From positions 1 through 48,488 of the forward strand of contig JAJZIG010000002.1 of the NCBI GenBank assembly GCA_021851265.1: a stretch of DNA of 48,488 bases. Reading direction: 5' to 3'. The position numbers were made by a program, and so were the translations under genes. The DNA comes from an archaeon (GTDB taxonomy: Archaea > Thermoproteota > Nitrososphaeria > Nitrososphaerales > Gagatemarchaeaceae). Positions 3,789-13,913 of the stretch are shown piece by piece. Within the stretch, counting starts at the first letter, position 1, and each line of letters begins with the position of its first letter. Below the pieces are notes generated by a model that saw only the letters and a program-made list of their open reading frames with translations, was not told the origin of the DNA and did not search any database.

Positions 3789-4895
3789 TCAGCCACGGAG
3801 CTCTCTCAGGACCTGTCCGTACCTGTGCCAGGCACTCTTGGGACCTTTCTTCTCGTCGATGAGCCCGAAATGGTTTTCCTGAGGAGGGAACGATTTCCAG
3901 GAGGTGTCGAGATACCGCCATATGCTGATACCTGTCACCCCGTCCAGGGAGTAGGCCTCCTTCAACGCCTGGGCCACATAGGCTGCCTGGTTCTCCTGGC
4001 TGTAGCCTAGGATGGAAGGCCCGCTGGGGTACCCCGTCTCGGCTATCAGCACTGGCTTGCCGGTCACCTTGGAGAAGTCTGCCGACCTCCTCACCACCGA
4101 GGCATCGACGGGCTCTGGCGACTTGTAGTTGGGATAAAAGTCCAAGCCGAGCACGTCACAGAACTTCACATACTCGGCAGCGTCGAGCTTCCCTTCATCA
4201 GCCTCGAGGTTTATCATCGTGGTGGCGCCCTGGTCTTCCTCGTGGACGGCGTCGTTCAGGGTCCTTAGGAGCGCATCTCTGAACCCCTTCCCCTCCAACC
4301 AGGATGCGCCTGAGCGCCATCCCCCTGCTTCGTGCATCATCCACCAGTTCGGTTCGTTCTCCAACTGCCAGGACCCAACGTCCATCTTGTAGTGCCTCAC
4401 CAACAGCCTGGCGTGGAGGTATGCTCTCTCCAGGTACTCGTCGACTCCTATGTCAGGGGTCAGTCCCGCTGGGAGCATCCTGTGGTAACCGCAGGCTAGG
4501 ACAGGGAGGATAGAGATTCCCTGCGCCCTAAGGGCCTTCACCAGGCTGTCCATAGGCCACTTTTCGTACCCCTTGTCTAAGACTGAACTCAAATCCTCGA
4601 CAGGGAGAGCATGTGGTTCGAAGTACCTCCAGGGGAACCAGCATCGGACGAAATCAACCCCAATCGACTTCAAGCTGTCTGCGAGTGAGAGAGAGGCTCT
4701 GTCAGCTTCGTCCTTGGGGATAGGCTGCTGACGCAGCGCGATGGTCGCCTCTTCCACCCTCTCAAAATTCCCCCTGTCTCTCAGGCTCAGGGTGAGCAGG
4801 TGCGGGAATATGATTGACTTCGGCTCCTGCGCACCGGCATACCTCCAGGGGTCGTCCAGGTTTATCCCGAAAGAGAACTTCTGATCAAGATTCAT
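3789..4895 (-). CDS. clan-A glycoside hydrolase, cytosolic
   Basis: 368 residues from ATG 4895 (GTG 4919 would add 8). The (beta/alpha)8 pattern is recognisable from the two catalytic glutamates. The acid/base Glu181 is in WQLENEP and the nucleophile Glu286 is in VLIAETGYPS, as in clan GH-A (GH5, GH39, GH53 and relatives). There is no signal peptide or membrane span, so it should act on an oligosaccharide or glycoside inside the cell. It lies upstream of and divergent from the sugar-acid operon, consistent with feeding free sugar into it. The exact GH family and substrate are not determined. Confidence 0.75.
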   Translation of the reverse strand: MNLDQKFSFGINLDDPWRYAGAQEPKSIIFPHLLTLSLRDRGNFERVEEATIALRQQPIPKDEADRASLSLADSLKSIGVDFVRCWFPWRYFEPHALPVEDLSSVLDKGYEKWPMDSLVKALRAQGISILPVLACGYHRMLPAGLTPDIGVDEYLERAYLHARLLVRHYKMDVGSWQLENEPNWWMMHEAGGWRSGASWLEGKGFRDALLRTLNDAVHEEDQGATTMINLEADEGKLDAAEYVKFCDVLGLDFYPNYKSPEPVDASVVRRSADFSKVTGKPVLIAETGYPSGPSILGYSQENQAAYVAQALKEAYSLDGVTGISIWRYLDTSWKSFPPQENHFGLIDEKKGPKSAWHRYGQVLRELRG

Positions 4896-5093
4896 GGCGA
4901 CGGGTGGGGGGCGCTTCACTTACGGATTTCCATTGTCGCGCTTTGCGAGACAATTCTTCGTTGTTACCATCCCTTTGCTAATCGGCATGCTGTGCTGCGC
5001 CAACTCAACCGACGAAATTTAGGTGATGATGCAGATATCTTACACAGCATGTTGTCGAAAAGGCGTATTACCCATGGGCCCAGTAGTACGACC

Positions 5094-5768
5094 ATGGGTA
5101 TTCCTATCAGAGCCGAGACGGCCATCGACCTCACCCATACGATCAAGAACGGGATGACTGTCTACGTGGGCGATGCCGTTCCACGGGTGGCTAAGTTCAA
5201 GACACTGGCGAAGGACGGTGTGAACCTCTCGGTCATCACGCTGGGGTCCCACACAGGGACACACGTGGACGCTCCAGCCCATTTCGTCAAGGGGGGGAGG
5301 CCGCTGGATGACCTCCCGGTGGAGACCTTCGTCGGGGAGGCTGCCGTGCTCGACCTCTCCCGGGTGAAGGCCGGATCGGCCATCCGCGCCTCGCACCTCG
5401 AAGCACACGAGGACGAGGTGAAGAAGGGGGACATAGTCCTCATCAACACCGGTTTCGGGAGGAGGTGGAGCGACCCGCGCGCGAGAAGAATGTACACTTA
5501 CCTCGGCGGCGACGCCGCTGAGTGGTTCGTAAGGAAGAAAGTGAAGGCGGTGGGCATTGACTATCTCTCGGTCGAGGAGTTTGGCGCACGCACACCGGTC
5601 GCGCACGTCACCCTCCTCTCCCATGGCATACCGATCATCGAGTCTCTGAACGAGAATATAGCTTCCCTCGGACGGAGAGTCTTCTTCGTCTGTCTCCCGA
5701 TAAAGGTGGGGGGATGCGACGGTGCACCCGCCAGGGCCATGGCCTACCCGATTGAGGGTGGGCATTGA
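5094..5768 (+). CDS. cyclase-family metal hydrolase (kynurenine formamidase-like fold); candidate sugar lactonase
   Basis: 224 residues. The metal-binding signature SHTGTHVDAPAHF sits at residues 52-64 (His53, His57, Asp59, His63), as in the KynB/cyclase family of amide and ester hydrolases. ATG 5094 is chosen because a TATA-like GTATTA element lies about 30 bp upstream; the open frame back to 4992 lacks family similarity. Its stop overlaps the TTG start of the aldolase gene (TTGA), so it leads the operon cyclase-aldolase-dehydratase. Known family members hydrolyse N-formylkynurenine or similar. In this operon, opening of an aldonolactone is a plausible but unproven role. Confidence 0.8.
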   Translation: MGIPIRAETAIDLTHTIKNGMTVYVGDAVPRVAKFKTLAKDGVNLSVITLGSHTGTHVDAPAHFVKGGRPLDDLPVETFVGEAAVLDLSRVKAGSAIRASHLEAHEDEVKKGDIVLINTGFGRRWSDPRARRMYTYLGGDAAEWFVRKKVKAVGIDYLSVEEFGARTPVAHVTLLSHGIPIIESLNENIASLGRRVFFVCLPIKVGGCDGAPARAMAYPIEGGH

Positions 5769-6649
5769 CACTGAGCCTCCGCGGCATAGTCTCCCCCATG
5801 CCTACACCGTTCGACGGGAGCGGGAACGTCGACGAGAAGAGGCTGGAGGAGCTCACAGACTTCCTCATCCAGGGGGGCATCGACGGGCTCTTCCCCCTGG
5901 GGACGACGGGGGAGTTCGCCTTCCTGGACAGGAGCGAGCGGAAACGCGTGCTCGAGGTCGTCGCCGACAGGGCGAACTCGAAGGTCCCGGTCCTGGCGGG
6001 TGTCTCTGATCCTTCCCCCAAGAACGTCATCTCTTTCGCGAAAGACGCAGAAGACGCCGGAGTGGACGCGGTCGTGGCCACGGCTCCATACTACTACCTC
6101 GTGAGCGAGGAAGGGCTGTATTTGCACTTCAAGGCGATTCACGAGGGAGTTAGCCTCCCACTCATCTTGTATAACATCCCGGAGTGGACCCATAACTACG
6201 TCCCGCCGCCCGTAGTCTCTCGCCTAGCCGAGGAGCGGGCGATCATCGGGGTGAAGTACACCGAATACAACATGCTCAACCTGACCGAGTTCATAGAATC
6301 GGTCGGGCACAAGATAGCCGTGTTAACCGGTTCCGATGCGATGGCCTTCTCATGCCTGGAGGCTGGAGGGGCCGGCGCGGTCATAAGCGTGTCCAACGTG
6401 GCGCCAAGGGCCGCAGCGAGCATCTTCGACCTGGTTGAGGCTTCGAAGTTCAAGGAGGCCCTGTCCGTCCAGAAGTCTCTGCTCCCTGCCATACAAGCGG
6501 TGGGGATGGGTTACTTCCCGGCAGGGCTCAAGGAGGCTATGAATGTCGCAGGCTTCCCAGTTGGCGACGTGAGGAAGCCGCAGACTCCTCTCTCCCCGGA
6601 AGAGAAAAAGGAGGTCGCCAGGCTGATGGGGATGGCGAGGTTGAAATAG
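5765..6649 (+). CDS. 2-keto-3-deoxy-gluconate-type aldolase (DapA/KdgA superfamily)
   Basis: 294 residues, the normal size for the DHDPS/N-acetylneuraminate lyase superfamily. GTTGE at 46-50 binds the alpha-keto acid carboxylate. Tyr136 (LYNIP) and Lys164 (GVKYT) are the proton-relay Tyr and Schiff-base Lys. Genes on both sides make cleavage of 2-keto-3-deoxygluconate to pyruvate and glyceraldehyde the likely reaction, in the cytosol. The start is TTG 5765, overlapping the upstream TGA by translational coupling; the dehydratase begins 35 nt after its stop. The subfamily cannot be fixed without a tree: DHDPS proper lacks the neighbours seen here. Confidence 0.85.
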   Translation: MTLSLRGIVSPMPTPFDGSGNVDEKRLEELTDFLIQGGIDGLFPLGTTGEFAFLDRSERKRVLEVVADRANSKVPVLAGVSDPSPKNVISFAKDAEDAGVDAVVATAPYYYLVSEEGLYLHFKAIHEGVSLPLILYNIPEWTHNYVPPPVVSRLAEERAIIGVKYTEYNMLNLTEFIESVGHKIAVLTGSDAMAFSCLEAGGAGAVISVSNVAPRAAASIFDLVEASKFKEALSVQKSLLPAIQAVGMGYFPAGLKEAMNVAGFPVGDVRKPQTPLSPEEKKEVARLMGMARLK

Positions 6650-6684: not shown

Positions 6685-7869
6685 ATGAAAATCTCAAGTT
6701 TCGAAGTATTTACCCTCGGCGAACCCGCGAAGGCCGGTGGTGCCACCTGGGCTGGGATATCCATCATCCTGAAGCTCACTACCTCGAACGGACTCGTCGG
6801 CTATGGGGAGGCCGTCCCGACCCTGAGGGTGAGGCCTGTTGTGGAGTCGCTGCGCGAGGTCGGGCGCCTGTACAAAGGCAAGGACCCGGCTGACCTCGAG
6901 CTCAACCAGCACGAGTGGCACAAGCACGACTTCTACCTCCCGGTTTCCTTCGAGTCGACCACGGCTCTCAGCGCCTTCGACATAGCCTGCTGGGACATCC
7001 TCGGGAAGCACCACGGGGTGCCTGTGTGTAAGCTCCTGGGTGGCACCTTCAGGGAATCTGTGAGGATGTACTCCAACGGCTGGTACTCTGACTGCGTGAC
7101 TCCCGAGCAGTTCGCAAGCCGCGCAAAGAAGTACGCAGCCATGGGTTACACGGGACTAAAGTTCGACCCATTCGGGAGATATTATGACTGGATTGACTCG
7201 CCTGGCCTCGAACTCGCCTACGAAAGGGTGAAGGCTGTGAAAGACGCAACCCGGGGGAAGGTCGACCTCCTCATCGAGCATCATGGCAGGTTCAACCCCA
7301 ACTCAGCAATCATGGCTGCAAGGAAACTAGAGCCACTCGACCCTCTCTTCGCCGAAGAGCCGATACATCCCGACAATGTGGAGGGGCTCAGGAAGTACAG
7401 GTCGTCTACCAAGATTCGCGTCGCCCTCGGAGAGAGGATACTCACCAAAGAGCACGCCGCCTACGTCTGCTCAAACCATCTGACCGACTTCCTGCAGGCG
7501 GACGTCACCAACATAGGAGGGATCACCCAGGCGAAGAAGGTGAGCGTCATCGCCGAGGCCTACGGCGTGGAAATGGCCTTCCACAACGCCTTCGGCCCCA
7601 TCCAGAACGCGGCTACCCTTCAGGTCGATGCCACGATACCCAATTTCCTCATCCAAGAGTCGTTCTACGACGTCTTCCCAGAGTGGAAGAGGAAGCTCGT
7701 GAAAGGCGGGACTCCTGTATTGAACGGGTGCTCCAGGGTGCCGGCCAAGCCTGGTCTCGGGGTGGAAGTAGACGAACGCATACTGAAAGAGCACTCCTTC
7801 GACGGTCAAGAGACCTTCGATCCAGACGAGCCTGTCTGGATAGTGAAGGACACTTGGAAGAAGTCCTAG
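6685..7869 (+). CDS. sugar-acid dehydratase, mandelate racemase/enolase superfamily (gluconate/galactonate dehydratase)
   Basis: 394 residues, the length of archaeal gluconate dehydratases. An N-terminal capping domain (1-125) is followed by a barrel. Metal ligands are Glu198 (LLIEHH), Glu224 (FAEEP) and Glu250 (LGERI), and His300 (AFHNAFG) is the likely general acid/base. The expected reaction is D-gluconate (and perhaps D-galactonate) to 2-keto-3-deoxy acid, which the upstream aldolase then cleaves. ATG 6685 follows a short spacer with a GAGCGCCAG leader. The end overlaps the convergent glycerate kinase gene by 4 nt. Confidence 0.88.
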   Translation: MKISSFEVFTLGEPAKAGGATWAGISIILKLTTSNGLVGYGEAVPTLRVRPVVESLREVGRLYKGKDPADLELNQHEWHKHDFYLPVSFESTTALSAFDIACWDILGKHHGVPVCKLLGGTFRESVRMYSNGWYSDCVTPEQFASRAKKYAAMGYTGLKFDPFGRYYDWIDSPGLELAYERVKAVKDATRGKVDLLIEHHGRFNPNSAIMAARKLEPLDPLFAEEPIHPDNVEGLRKYRSSTKIRVALGERILTKEHAAYVCSNHLTDFLQADVTNIGGITQAKKVSVIAEAYGVEMAFHNAFGPIQNAATLQVDATIPNFLIQESFYDVFPEWKRKLVKGGTPVLNGCSRVPAKPGLGVEVDERILKEHSFDGQETFDPDEPVWIVKDTWKKS

Positions 7870-9215
7870 AGGCCGTTGCGCATCGCAATCATGATATCAT
7901 TGACGTTGGTCCCGGTAGGACCGGTCATGATGAGGTCGCCCAGAGCCCGAAAGAAGGTGTTTGAGTCGTTGTCGTCAAGGTATCGTTGAGGGTCGAGCCC
8001 CATCGCCAGAGCTCTCTCGACTGTCATGGAATCTGCGTATGCTCCGGCCGCAGTCGTTGACCCGTCGACTCCATCTGTGCCGAAGGACACCACCGCAGTA
8101 TCAGATGCGCGTCTAAGGCGGAGGGCCGCAGCAAGGGCCAGTTCCTGGTTCCTCCCTCCGGTCCCTCTTCCTCTGGCCGTGACCGTCGTCTCTCCTCCCC
8201 AGACCACTGCGATGCGCTTCCCTGGCATAGACTGAACCTGACGAACCAATCGCGCGCCAACCTCCCTCGCTTCGCCGGCGACCGCGCCAGCCGCCCGAAC
8301 CTTGTACCCAAAGCGTTGCAGGGAGTCCTTGGCCGCCGAAGAGGCGGTGGCATTGGTGCCTATCAGGACATTTGTGACCCTCTTGAATACGGGGTCGCCC
8401 GGCTTTGGCGTTTCTCTGATGTGTCCCTCGGTGCCTGAAGTGATTAACTCCCTGACAGACGCCGGAATCCTTCCCCATACTTTCCTAGCCCTAAGGACCT
8501 TTGCCGCTTCAGCGAAGGTGGTCGGGTCCGCCGCAGTCGGACCAGACGCCACGGAACTCAAATCGTCCCCTACGACGTCCGAAATTATCAGGCCAAGGAC
8601 CTGGGCCCCGCCTGCTTTCTCGACTAGGCGGCCTCCCGCTATCTGGGACAGATGCTTCCTCACGCAGTTCATCTCTCTTATCTCCGCGCCGGACTTCAAG
8701 AGGAGGCTGGTGGTCATGTCAAGCTCTTTCATGGTCAAACCTTCAAGCGGCGCCGGCATCAGCGCTGACCCTCCCCCGGACAGCAGGACAATCACTAAGT
8801 CATCTTCCGACGTTCCTTTCAGCGCACCGAGCATGCGCCGCACGCCTCTCAGCCCCCTCTCGGACGGGAGCGGGTGGGTCGACGCCACGAACCTTATCTT
8901 CTCCAGCTTCGGGAGGAACGTCTGATAGTCTGGGACAACCACGACGCCCCGATCTAGCTTCCGTCCCAGCAGGTGTTCCAACTCAGCGGCCATGAGCCCT
9001 GATGCCTTCCCTCCTCCTACCACCACGACCTTGTGAAAGTCCGCCAGTCGGTGACCAACGCCATTGACCTCTAGTTCTCCCCCATGAACCCGGACGGCTT
9101 TCCTCACGAGCAGGGCTGGATCAGCAGCCTCTAGGGCGGCTTTGACCGCGAAGAGGGCGTCCCTTCTGATTCCCCGCGCTGCATCGATGGCTTCTTCCAA
9201 ATCCCCAGTGGTCAC
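7866..9215 (-). CDS. glycerate 2-kinase (MOFRL/GckA type)
   Basis: About 449 residues. It contains the two-domain DUF4147-MOFRL layout: VVVGGGKASGLMAAELE near the N-terminus, LLSGGGSALM in the middle, then WGGETTV and TGGRNQELALA, then FGTDGVDGSTTAAGA. It phosphorylates glycerate to 2-phosphoglycerate, the last special step of the non-phosphorylative Entner-Doudoroff route. GTG 9215 is chosen because the TATA-like GTATTTACA at about 9241-9250 places the transcript start near 9220. The open frame continues to a start at 9284, which would lie upstream of that promoter. Divergent from the aldehyde dehydrogenase. Confidence 0.9.
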   Translation of the reverse strand: MTTGDLEEAIDAARGIRRDALFAVKAALEAADPALLVRKAVRVHGGELEVNGVGHRLADFHKVVVVGGGKASGLMAAELEHLLGRKLDRGVVVVPDYQTFLPKLEKIRFVASTHPLPSERGLRGVRRMLGALKGTSEDDLVIVLLSGGGSALMPAPLEGLTMKELDMTTSLLLKSGAEIREMNCVRKHLSQIAGGRLVEKAGGAQVLGLIISDVVGDDLSSVASGPTAADPTTFAEAAKVLRARKVWGRIPASVRELITSGTEGHIRETPKPGDPVFKRVTNVLIGTNATASSAAKDSLQRFGYKVRAAGAVAGEAREVGARLVRQVQSMPGKRIAVVWGGETTVTARGRGTGGRNQELALAAALRLRRASDTAVVSFGTDGVDGSTTAAGAYADSMTVERALAMGLDPQRYLDDNDSNTFFRALGDLIMTGPTGTNVNDIMIAMRNGL

Positions 9216-9293
9216 GAACTGACGGCATCGCACCCTAACATGTAAATACGATGCCCGGCCAATTGTTCTCTTAGTTTGTCGCATATCGCCGAG

Positions 9294-10760: not shown

Positions 10761-11831
10761 ATGAAAGCGATAACTGTTACGCCAGGGACTGCGGGTTCGG
10801 TTTCGCTGAAAGAAGTCCCGGAGCCTACCCCGAAACCTCGACAGCTTCTCCTCAAGGTCCTGAAAGTTGGAATCTGCGGCACCGACATGGATATCGTAAA
10901 CGGGTTCTATGGGGAGGCCCCACCGGGGTCCCCATACCTGATCCTTGGCCACGAGTCACTGTCCAGAGTAGAAAGCATTGGCCCAGGCTGCAAGGGTTTC
11001 AAGAAAGGGGACTTGGTGGTTCCCACGGTACGGAGAGGCTGTCTGGAGAACTGTCTCAACTGCAGAAACGGGGAGTCCGACATGTGTCTCACAGGGCACT
11101 ACAAAGAGCATGGAATCAAGGGCCTCCATGGGTTCGCAAGCGAGTTGACAGTCAGCGATTCACGATTCGTCGTCAAGCTCCCTGAGTCCCTATCGGAGGT
11201 GGGTGTTCTCCTCGAACCGCTTACAATAGTGGAGAAGGGAATCGAGCAGGCCTTCCGCATTCAGAATGCGCGGATGAAGTGGAAGCCGAGTACAGCGCTA
11301 GTACTGGGGTCCGGGCCAGTCGGACTCCTGGCTACTGCGCTCTTACGGCAGATGGGGCTGGCTGTGACCACCGTTGCCAGGAAGCCCGCAGACACCCCCA
11401 AGGCAAGGTTGGCCTCTTCCACTGGTGCGACCTACGTCGATGTCCAGGCCAGGCCATTGTCGTCCATGGAGGACAAGTTCGACCTAGTCTTTGAAGCGAC
11501 TGGTTCTACGTCGGTGGCCCTGGAGGCTCAGAATCTCTGCGGTACCAATGGCGTGGTCTCATTCATAGGGATTTACAAATCGCAGGCCGAGACAGAAGAT
11601 GCGGGGAAGGTGTTCACTAATCTAGTACTGGGGAACCGCGTCTACTTCGGTTCTGTCAACGCCAACATCTCATACTTCCGGCAGGGAGCATCTGACTTGG
11701 TTAAAATCAGGAGGAAATGGAATGGTTTCCTCGAAGGGATATTGACCAACCATATACCTCTGGCGGAGGCGGAGTCAGCCTACGTCCCCAAGGGAGAAGA
11801 CGATGTCAAAACCGTCTTGGAAATGGAATGA
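10761..11831 (+). CDS. zinc-dependent glucose 1-dehydrogenase (MDR family)
   Basis: 356 residues. Catalytic zinc ligands are Cys39 (GICGTD), His64-Glu65 (GHES) and probably Glu152 (LLEPL). Four structural-zinc cysteines lie at 94, 98, 101 and 109. The Rossmann motif GSGPVG is at 183-188, with an Arg after the second strand, compatible with NADP. ICGTDMDIVNG and GHESL resemble Sulfolobus and Thermoplasma glucose dehydrogenases. It oxidises glucose (and often galactose) to the lactone, the entry step of the pathway. Only 6 nt separate it from the aldehyde dehydrogenase, so they form an operon. Promoter-proximal control is shared with that gene. Confidence 0.88.
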   Translation: MKAITVTPGTAGSVSLKEVPEPTPKPRQLLLKVLKVGICGTDMDIVNGFYGEAPPGSPYLILGHESLSRVESIGPGCKGFKKGDLVVPTVRRGCLENCLNCRNGESDMCLTGHYKEHGIKGLHGFASELTVSDSRFVVKLPESLSEVGVLLEPLTIVEKGIEQAFRIQNARMKWKPSTALVLGSGPVGLLATALLRQMGLAVTTVARKPADTPKARLASSTGATYVDVQARPLSSMEDKFDLVFEATGSTSVALEAQNLCGTNGVVSFIGIYKSQAETEDAGKVFTNLVLGNRVYFGSVNANISYFRQGASDLVKIRRKWNGFLEGILTNHIPLAEAESAYVPKGEDDVKTVLEME

Positions 11832-12050: not shown

Positions 12051-13913
12051 GTGTCTCAACACACGACTGACGGTGGAGAGATACAGGGGGGAGTCAGTCC
12101 GAAGCCCTTCTCTTTGCCCCCGCCAGACAGCTACAAACCGATTTCCGGGTACGGAATCATCGGGAACACCAGAACAGCCGCCTTGGTCGGATACGACGGT
12201 TCCATAGACTGGTGTTGCATGCCTAAGTTCAGCTCTCCAAGCATCTTCGCCGCCATTCTTGATCGCGGCAAGGGAGGACGATGGGTGATACAGCCGTCTG
12301 CCACCGCGATTTCGACTCAGTCCTACCTGGAGGACACGAACATACTTAGGACCGAGTTTCGTAACGTGACCTCCCGCGTCGTCCTGACCGACTTCATGCC
12401 CTGTTCCCTCACCCAAGAAGCCTGGTCTGCGCCGCCAGAGATCCACAGGGTGGTACAGTGCTTGAGCGGCACGATGCAACTCAAACTAGAATTCAATCCA
12501 GTCTTCAACTACGGCTACGTGATGCCCAAGTTCGCCGCGACTGATTTCGGGGTCAAGGTGAAGAGCAGGAAGGAGGAGATCGCCCTCTCGAGTTCCATCC
12601 CATTCCAAGTATCCGGGTCCGGAGCGTCAGCAGAGTTCACCCTGGCCCAAGGGGAAAAGAGGGCATTCGTGCTGAGCTACGGCGAGGACGAGCCGCGAAA
12701 GGTGAACGAGTACCACACCGAGAGGCAGCGGGCCAAGACCGAGGTGTTCTGGATGGACTGGGTGTCGCTGCTGAGGTACAGGGGAAGGTGGAGAGATGCA
12801 GTAGTGAGGTCTGCCCTCACGCTGAAACTTCTCATCTATTCGCCGACGGGAGCGATGGTCGCCGCACCGACCACCTCACTTCCAGAGTCGATAGGCAACG
12901 GGCGGAACTGGGACTACAGATATTCTTGGCTCCGGGATTCGGCTAGCGCCCTCTGGGCGTTTCACAACATAGGCTACAGGAGCGAAAGTGAAGCGTACCT
13001 TCGCTGGTTGATTGACAACAACCCATCTCTGGATATGGACCTCAGATTGATGTATGACATTGACGGGAGCAGCAGGATAAAGGAAAAGGTCCTCGACCAA
13101 CTCGAGGGATACAGAAAGTCGCACCCCGTCAGGATAGGGAACCAGGCAGTCAGACAGGTGCAGTATGACGCCTATGGATACATGCTGGACGCCCTCTACT
13201 TCTCAACTAGGCATGGCCGCCAGGTTGACAACGAAATGTACTACAGGTTCGTAAAACCCCTTGCCAACTTCATCGTCGAACACTGGTCCGAACCGGGGAA
13301 CGGAATCTGGGAATTCAGAGGCGTACAGAAGCACTACGTCTACACGAAGGTGTGGTGCCATGCAGGCCTGAAGAGGGCCGTCAAGATAGCCGAGACAGCA
13401 GGGCACGAGGACGACATACCATCATGGAAGGCTACCATGAGGCAGATCAAGGGCGAAGTACTCCGCGATGGCTGGAACGCTAAGAGAGGTTCCTTCGTCA
13501 TGCACTATGGGTCGGAATTTCTGGATGCGGCGACGCTGATGTTCCCGCTCATCGGTTTCCTACCTGCGAACGACGAGAAGATGAGAGCGACTATTGAAGC
13601 CGTCAGAAGAGAGCTTTCAGAGGGGGCCCTCGTCTACAGGTACAAGACTGATGATGGCCTTGAGGGGGAGGAAGGCGCGTTCGCGCTATGCGGTTTCTGG
13701 TTGGTCGCCTGTCTTGCTAGGCTTGGCAGGGTCGAGGAGGCCACAAAGAACTTCGAGGAACTCCTGGGCCATGCGAACCACCTGGGCCTCTATTCTGAGG
13801 AGGTCGACCCCAAGACCGGAGAGGCCCTCGGCAACTTCCCACAGGCCTTCAGCCACATGGGGCTCATACTCGCGGCCAAAGAGATCGAAGACGCCATGAT
13901 GAGGACCGAATAG
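12051..13913 (+). CDS. GH15 glucoamylase-like or trehalase-like glycosidase
   Basis: 620 residues. The N-terminal beta-sandwich has the GH15 opening GYGIIGNTRTAALVGYDGSIDW, split here only for description. The (alpha/alpha)6 barrel starts at about 270 and contains NGRNWDYRYSWLRDS. Catalytic glutamates are expected in GEEGAF (about 541) and YSEEVD (about 581). There is no signal peptide, so it is cytosolic. Archaeal homologues include glucoamylases and acid trehalases, and the adjacent glycosyltransferase-phosphatase pair makes trehalose turnover possible. The start is GTG 12051, with TATA-like GTAAATACC far upstream at about 11900. It releases glucose for the neighbouring dehydrogenase. Confidence 0.85.
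   Translation: MSQHTTDGGEIQGGVSPKPFSLPPPDSYKPISGYGIIGNTRTAALVGYDGSIDWCCMPKFSSPSIFAAILDRGKGGRWVIQPSATAISTQSYLEDTNILRTEFRNVTSRVVLTDFMPCSLTQEAWSAPPEIHRVVQCLSGTMQLKLEFNPVFNYGYVMPKFAATDFGVKVKSRKEEIALSSSIPFQVSGSGASAEFTLAQGEKRAFVLSYGEDEPRKVNEYHTERQRAKTEVFWMDWVSLLRYRGRWRDAVVRSALTLKLLIYSPTGAMVAAPTTSLPESIGNGRNWDYRYSWLRDSASALWAFHNIGYRSESEAYLRWLIDNNPSLDMDLRLMYDIDGSSRIKEKVLDQLEGYRKSHPVRIGNQAVRQVQYDAYGYMLDALYFSTRHGRQVDNEMYYRFVKPLANFIVEHWSEPGNGIWEFRGVQKHYVYTKVWCHAGLKRAVKIAETAGHEDDIPSWKATMRQIKGEVLRDGWNAKRGSFVMHYGSEFLDAATLMFPLIGFLPANDEKMRATIEAVRRELSEGALVYRYKTDDGLEGEEGAFALCGFWLVACLARLGRVEEATKNFEELLGHANHLGLYSEEVDPKTGEALGNFPQAFSHMGLILAAKEIEDAMMRTE

Follow-up and report, generated by a model that had tools for sequence, protein, structure and literature searches.

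A PF04199 cyclase-family protein as a predicted aldonolactonase of an archaeal Entner-Doudoroff operon

Known aldonolactonases and characterized relatives

The non-phosphorylative Entner-Doudoroff (npED) route is known from Thermoplasma and Picrophilus. The reaction that we propose below for one protein of an npED operon, conversion of an aldonolactone to the aldonate, is that of SMP30/gluconolactonases and DevB/Pgl proteins, whose folds (beta-propellers and NagB-like, respectively) are unrelated to that of the protein in question, a PF04199 cyclase. Reviewed aldonolactonases are SMP30 proteins, and lactone opening can also be spontaneous, if slow (PMC9795676). In the non-subscription literature searched, no PF04199 sugar lactonase was found.

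Precedent for lactone and ester opening within PF04199 comes from trans-dienelactone hydrolase, a member of the family, and from MGS0169, an esterase with a kcat/Km of ≈2e5 M-1 s-1 for pNP-acetate versus 1e2 for isatin (PMC5341072). Both differ from our cyclase in that Gln replaces the first two His of the metal motif, and their substrates belong to aromatic degradation or are unknown. The kynurenine formamidase KynB (4CO9, 4COG, and 4COB) shares the cyclase fold, with TM-scores of 0.81-0.82 by query length, as well as six metal and catalytic residues (H50, H54, D56, H60, H161, and E173) whose roles have been described (PMC4243253), and by analogy the two proteins would share hydrolysis through a metal-bridged water. 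In contrast to KynB, the cyclase has Tyr in place of Trp20 and Glu in place of Asp151, falls in a separate clade, and is encoded in a sugar-acid operon of a genome that lacks tryptophan dioxygenase. Position 20 of KynB is Trp in 81% of cases, Tyr, as in Tyr24 of the cyclase, being a permitted minority state (PMC4243253). The closest solved structures, 1R61/3KRV from Geobacillus stearothermophilus and 8HMO from Bacillus smithii (with Mn), are 29-32% identical to the cyclase and resemble it in having Tyr and Glu at these two diagnostic positions, but they belong to the clade on the Dependentiae side, have GIE where the cyclase has SVE, and are entries without an assigned function.

The cyclase gene, its operon, and its active site

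The window, meaning the whole stretch of 48,488 nucleotides that was analyzed, is contig C208 of a 1.89 Mb archaeal metagenome-assembled genome (MAG) that is 91% complete and that we queried with family profiles. Identical or near-identical relatives of the window occur in "Nitrososphaerota archaeon" MAGs such as FK2_bin.173, and the genome belongs to a family other than that of the Nitrososphaeraceae-like genomes in the same order. The cyclase gene (Table 1) is intact and encodes 224 amino acids that match PF04199 at 1.8e-36 (125.9 bits versus a cut-off of 23.1) and no other Pfam family; its start is backed by an aligned Met in relatives. The gene is translationally coupled to the aldolase gene: its last four nucleotides, which include the TGA stop codon (5766-5768), are also the first four of the aldolase gene, which starts with TTG at 5765, and the same TTGA overlap is seen again in several relatives.

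The preliminary description of this DNA had placed the other steps of a glucose route in the neighborhood, with the cyclase leading an aldolase-dehydratase operon and carrying an intact metal site, and all of this holds. The coupled aldolase is followed by GAD, and with GlyK, the glyceraldehyde-type ALDH, and the PF16912 GDH, the npED set near the cyclase is complete. Lactone opening is the sole npED step without another assigned gene there. Because the matching NCBIfam equivalog cut-offs were not reached, the substrate specificities of the operon enzymes are predictions. The aldolase scores above the dapA cut-off (213 versus 206 bits), yet it has YNIPEWT where DapA has YNVPGRT, which we take to be the DapA motif with Arg138, a residue that is missing here.

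Several other features surround the operon. A relative of the GH15 trehalase-like gene adjoins GDH at another locus (L160) too. Upstream, a divergent minus-strand gene (3789-4919) encodes a 376-aa protein that matches no family above cut-off, shows a weak DUF5722 match, and resembles a TIM-barrel glycosidase; it precedes the operon in those close relatives whose contigs reach there, and a 23% relative occupies the equivalent divergent position in genome G050 (L157). A scan for sigma-70 promoters and terminators gave nothing above chance, the sigma-70 model being unsuited to archaea.

Table 1. Positions in the window of the cyclase gene, its active-site elements, and the neighboring pathway genes
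Feature	Position	Strand	Basis
PF04199 "cyclase", predicted metal-dependent aldonolactonase, operon gene 1	5094..5768	+	Pfam, alignment, AF2 model
Tyr24, aligned with KynB Trp20	5163..5165	+	Alignment
HTGTHVDAPAH motif: H53, H57, D59 as metal ligands; H63 as general base by analogy with KynB	5250..5282	+	Alignment
S159-V160-E161: Ser retained, Glu in place of KynB Asp151	5568..5576	+	Alignment
H171 ... E183, remaining metal ligands	5604..5642	+	Alignment
DHDPS-family 2-keto-3-deoxygluconate (KDG) aldolase	5765..6649	+	Family profile; lacks DapA Arg138
Gluconate/galactonate dehydratase (GAD), enolase superfamily	6685..7869	+	NF040790, 585.9 bits, under its 750-bit cut-off
Glycerate 2-kinase (GlyK), MOFRL family	7866..9284	-	Family profiles
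Aldehyde dehydrogenase (ALDH), nearest to archaeal glyceraldehyde dehydrogenase NF040792	9276..10754	+	Family profiles
Glucose/aldose dehydrogenase (GDH, PF16912), lactone-producing step	10761..11831	+	Family profiles
GH15 trehalase-like hydrolase, probable glucose supplier	12051..13913	+	Family profiles

The HTGTHVDAPAH segment fits the family motif HxGTHxDxPxH, and all six KynB residues listed above are kept, in the same order, as H53, H57, D59, H63, H171, and E183. The AF2 model of the cyclase (pLDDT 94.7, pTM 0.91) matches 3KRV, 8HMO, and KynB with TM-scores of 0.86-0.91 by target length, PF04199 metal hydrolases being the closest folds in the PDB. At the positions of KynB Trp20 and Asp151, the 25 archaeal sugar-linked sequences have Tyr in 24 cases (plus one gap) and Glu in 25, the acid-sugar sequences described below have the pair in 5 of 5, and the 36 Dependentiae sequences have Tyr in 35 and Glu in 36. 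The cyclase of genome G003 is an exception, with Lys at position 151, and the Tyr/Glu pair also occurs outside sugar-linked sequences.

In a phylogenetic tree whose bootstrap stopped short of full convergence, the window cyclase groups with those of families f9, f17, and f8 and of genome G166 at modest support (87/67). Dependentiae cyclases join 1R61/8HMO (100/98), the acid-sugar group is separate (100/99), and KynB lies elsewhere. Because the Dependentiae and acid-sugar cyclases form clades separate from the archaeal ones, their contexts inform us of what the family can do rather than of orthology. A second cyclase in the window genome (C49:30737-31306, 26% identical) lies in an unrelated catabolic cluster and was set aside as a pathway enzyme.

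Genomic contexts of related cyclases

Relatives of the cyclase are repeatedly associated with genes for lactone-forming dehydrogenases. The linkage to sugar genes, which the preliminary description proposed to look for in other archaea, is present within the genus and beyond it, and it extends to bacteria. The order cyclase-KDG aldolase-GAD is kept in all 10 of the closest loci (L001-L010), and GlyK-ALDH-GDH then follows in nine, that is, wherever the contig extends. Among 31 genomes of the genus, the window genome included, orthologues of GAD (at least 86% identical) and of the cyclase (at least 72%) occur in the same 13 and neither occurs in the other 18, and the two genes are adjacent in 13 of 13; these are raw counts without correction for phylogeny, and the 13 genomes are not 13 independent events because gain or loss of the whole operon at once may underlie the pattern. 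One bin (G157) holds two versions of the operon (L001 and L002, on C17 and C7), with cyclases 100% and 92% identical, reflecting either duplication or two strains binned together.

Outside the genus, the gene order varies. In G166, the order is rearranged, with the cyclase between GlyK and ALDH and 3.1 kb from GAD. In G029 (family f17), the cyclase gene (45%) overlaps the end of a gene for an IlvD/EDD dehydratase, which is preceded by GDH (50%) and a trehalase-like gene (47%); this dehydratase is non-homologous to GAD, and the arrangement follows the same pathway logic. No close cyclase accompanies the dehydratase in genomes G042 and G070, and the cyclase of family f9 lies away from the GAD cluster. 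Around six distant archaeal relatives (L040, L045, L048, L055, L063, and L076) we found no pathway gene nearby, with the exception of a 29% GDH-like match ≈3.7 kb from the cyclase at L055.

Family f8, which we take to be the Nitrososphaeraceae, places cyclases of the same clade (40-47%) among pentose phosphate pathway (PPP) genes. There, the cyclase is clustered with an F420-G6PDH-family oxidoreductase, RpiA, a cupin of ≈130 aa that is perhaps a sugar epimerase or mutarotase, and an NAD-type 6PGDH, in full order in G056 and G200 and partially in G063, G098, and G176 (clusters of this type span, for example, L163:5329-10712 and L187:822-4216). The substrate of the oxidoreductase is predicted, because the protein passes TIGR03557 (F420_G6P_family) and fails the strict G6PDH equivalog TIGR03554. 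We found 6PGDH in 13 of 201 genomes at E<=1e-20; among the eight genomes with an intact 6PGDH at least 64% identical, the cyclase is adjacent in six and on a different contig in two. The cyclase beside 6PGDH in G003 is of the Dependentiae-side clade, a pattern that would fit the exchange of one cyclase for another beside the same 6PGDH. Three Nitrososphaeraceae genomes (G122, G155, and G188) have a PPP-type cyclase and no 6PGDH match, and G063 has a full-length PF10282 protein alongside its PPP-type cyclase. In G196, the 6PGDH frame (L208, C85:2012-2938) carries five stops and the genome also lacks a close PPP-type cyclase, which suggests joint loss. The genome paper on N. evergladensis lists an F420-dependent oxidoreductase and a gluconolactonase, with 6PGDH in N. 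gargensis only (PMC4084955).

Among bacteria, cyclases of the window's kind occur in 57 of 101 Dependentiae genomes (E<=1e-10). We analyzed 38 Dependentiae loci, three of them duplicates, from 35 distinct genomes: 31 of the 38 (28 of the 35 distinct genomes) have a same-strand gnd no more than 1.5 kb away, 27 have zwf within 3.5 kb, and Pfam confirms G6PD, 6PGD, and PGI. None of 62 other cyclase loci has gnd nearby (Fisher p 2e-19 versus Dependentiae, computed on loci). Since neither zwf nor gnd is within reach at any of these 62, the sugar-gene linkage is specific to certain clades, and a link of cyclases in general to sugar genes can be rejected. The zwf-gnd-cyclase arrangement of Dependentiae (TM6) is seen at L212-L241, L021, L025, L026, L027, L034, L037, and L075, sometimes behind pgi; at L021, only 84 aa of the zwf frame remain, and there are two tandem cyclases. 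DevB-type 6PGL was absent in 23 of 24 genomes checked, eight Dependentiae genomes yielded a single 26-bit match to it, and PF10282 in the Dependentiae genomes tested was limited to repeat fragments in two.

A third context occurs in relatives from Deltaproteobacteria/Myxococcota (40-45% identity), in which the cyclase gene lies between those for PdxA2 and a DUF1537-type acid-sugar kinase. In L018:7356-8588, and apparently L016:1-1047, the PF04199 domain follows a class II aldolase domain in a single fused protein, near PdxA2 and/or the DUF1537 kinase. This setting is a four-carbon acid-sugar context.

Alternative assignments and the predicted role

That no SMP30/gluconolactonase was seen in the neighborhood is confirmed on a larger scale, as the whole 91%-complete assembly has no PF08450 match, and SMP30 was rejected as a hidden lactonase of this genome. 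Nor did the search for a normal lactonase elsewhere in the assembly return a DevB-type 6PGL (PF01182) or a PF10282 match above cut-off; an 18.6-bit PF10282 fragment, below cut-off, is part of a beta-propeller protein (298 aa) that is encoded on a different contig and unlinked to the pathway. One Amidohydro_2 protein, also unlinked, is a weak candidate. Since these genes exist and the assembly is incomplete, the real lactonase could be the Amidohydro_2 protein, some divergent beta-propeller, or a product of the 9% that the assembly lacks, with the cyclase as an accessory. We consider this very unlikely, given that no such gene is linked to the pathway and that the 100%-complete genome G044 has the operon and no SMP30, PF01182, or PF10282 match. 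Full-length SMP30 is missing from 8 of the 13 operon genomes and present in 5, where it may be an alternative gluconolactonase. In G163 (L171:8777-10890), its neighbor is a different MR_MLE dehydratase, 42% identical to that of the operon, the two apparently representing a second sugar-acid route, and in G059, G066, G151, and G172 it adjoins another ALDH, ≈35% identical to that of the operon and away from it; because of these neighbors, the SMP30 of the sister genomes plausibly serves another sugar.

Retention of SMP30 in some relatives also bears on the idea that the cyclase opens some other lactone or ester of the neighborhood (galactono-, xylono-, arabino-, or a side product), with the opening of gluconolactone left to spontaneous hydrolysis or to another enzyme. 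In its favor, the dehydratase belongs to a bifunctional type that covers gluconate and galactonate, and no enzyme is strictly required because gluconolactone hydrolyzes spontaneously. We nevertheless regard this reading as unlikely, as 6-phosphogluconolactone is the substrate indicated by the gene contexts in Dependentiae and Nitrososphaeraceae, which suggests that glucose-derived lactones are typical of the sugar-linked clades. Still less probable is an ordinary KynB kynurenine formamidase, or another amidase, that lies in a sugar operon by chance. Arylformamidase TIGR03035 is the best curated model for the cyclase, and the fold and metal ligands are common to both, but the match fails (94.1 bits versus a cut-off of 223.05), and tryptophan 2,3-dioxygenase (PF03301) is absent in 33 of 33 genomes, including that of the window, in a search whose control gave a match in two genomes. 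KynB as the main role also conflicts with its placement in another clade, with the Tyr and Glu that replace Trp20 and Asp151 in the sugar-linked clades, and with an operon association conserved across the genus and beyond.

Operon conservation, the missing standard lactonases, and the comparative contexts make an aldonolactonase of the npED route the best explanation for the window cyclase, and we predict that this is probably its function. Comparative genomics thus supports the job of lactone opening that the preliminary description had proposed, with the five sister genomes that also have SMP30 as a proviso. The catalytic activity, substrate, metal, and mechanism are predictions, and the mechanism is that of KynB transferred to a lactone carbonyl. 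In a heterotrophic Nitrososphaerota host using the npED route, GDH would make D-glucono-1,5-lactone, and possibly galactonolactone too. The cyclase would hold one or two divalent metals through H53, H57, D59, H171, and E183, with H63 activating a metal-bridging water for attack on the lactone C1 and S159 helping to stabilize the intermediate. The gluconate released would then pass to GAD and the KDG aldolase of the same operon.

More broadly, and with somewhat less assurance, we favor the view that several separate PF04199 clades form an unrecognized class of sugar lactonases: gluconolactonases in Nitrososphaerota npED operons, 6-phosphogluconolactonases in the PPP operons of Nitrososphaeraceae and Dependentiae, and tetronolactonases in acid-sugar clusters. 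The aldonolactonase prediction is specific and testable with available substrates. If the broader view is true, many proteins now annotated as "arylformamidase" or "cyclase" would be misnamed, and Tyr and Glu at KynB positions 20 and 151 would help to diagnose sugar-lactonase clades. A likely role would also become available for structures of unassigned function, among them 1R61 and 8HMO, part of a large and often misannotated family of metal hydrolases would have a function, and the lactone-opening step of central sugar oxidation would gain an enzyme in lineages without the standard ones.
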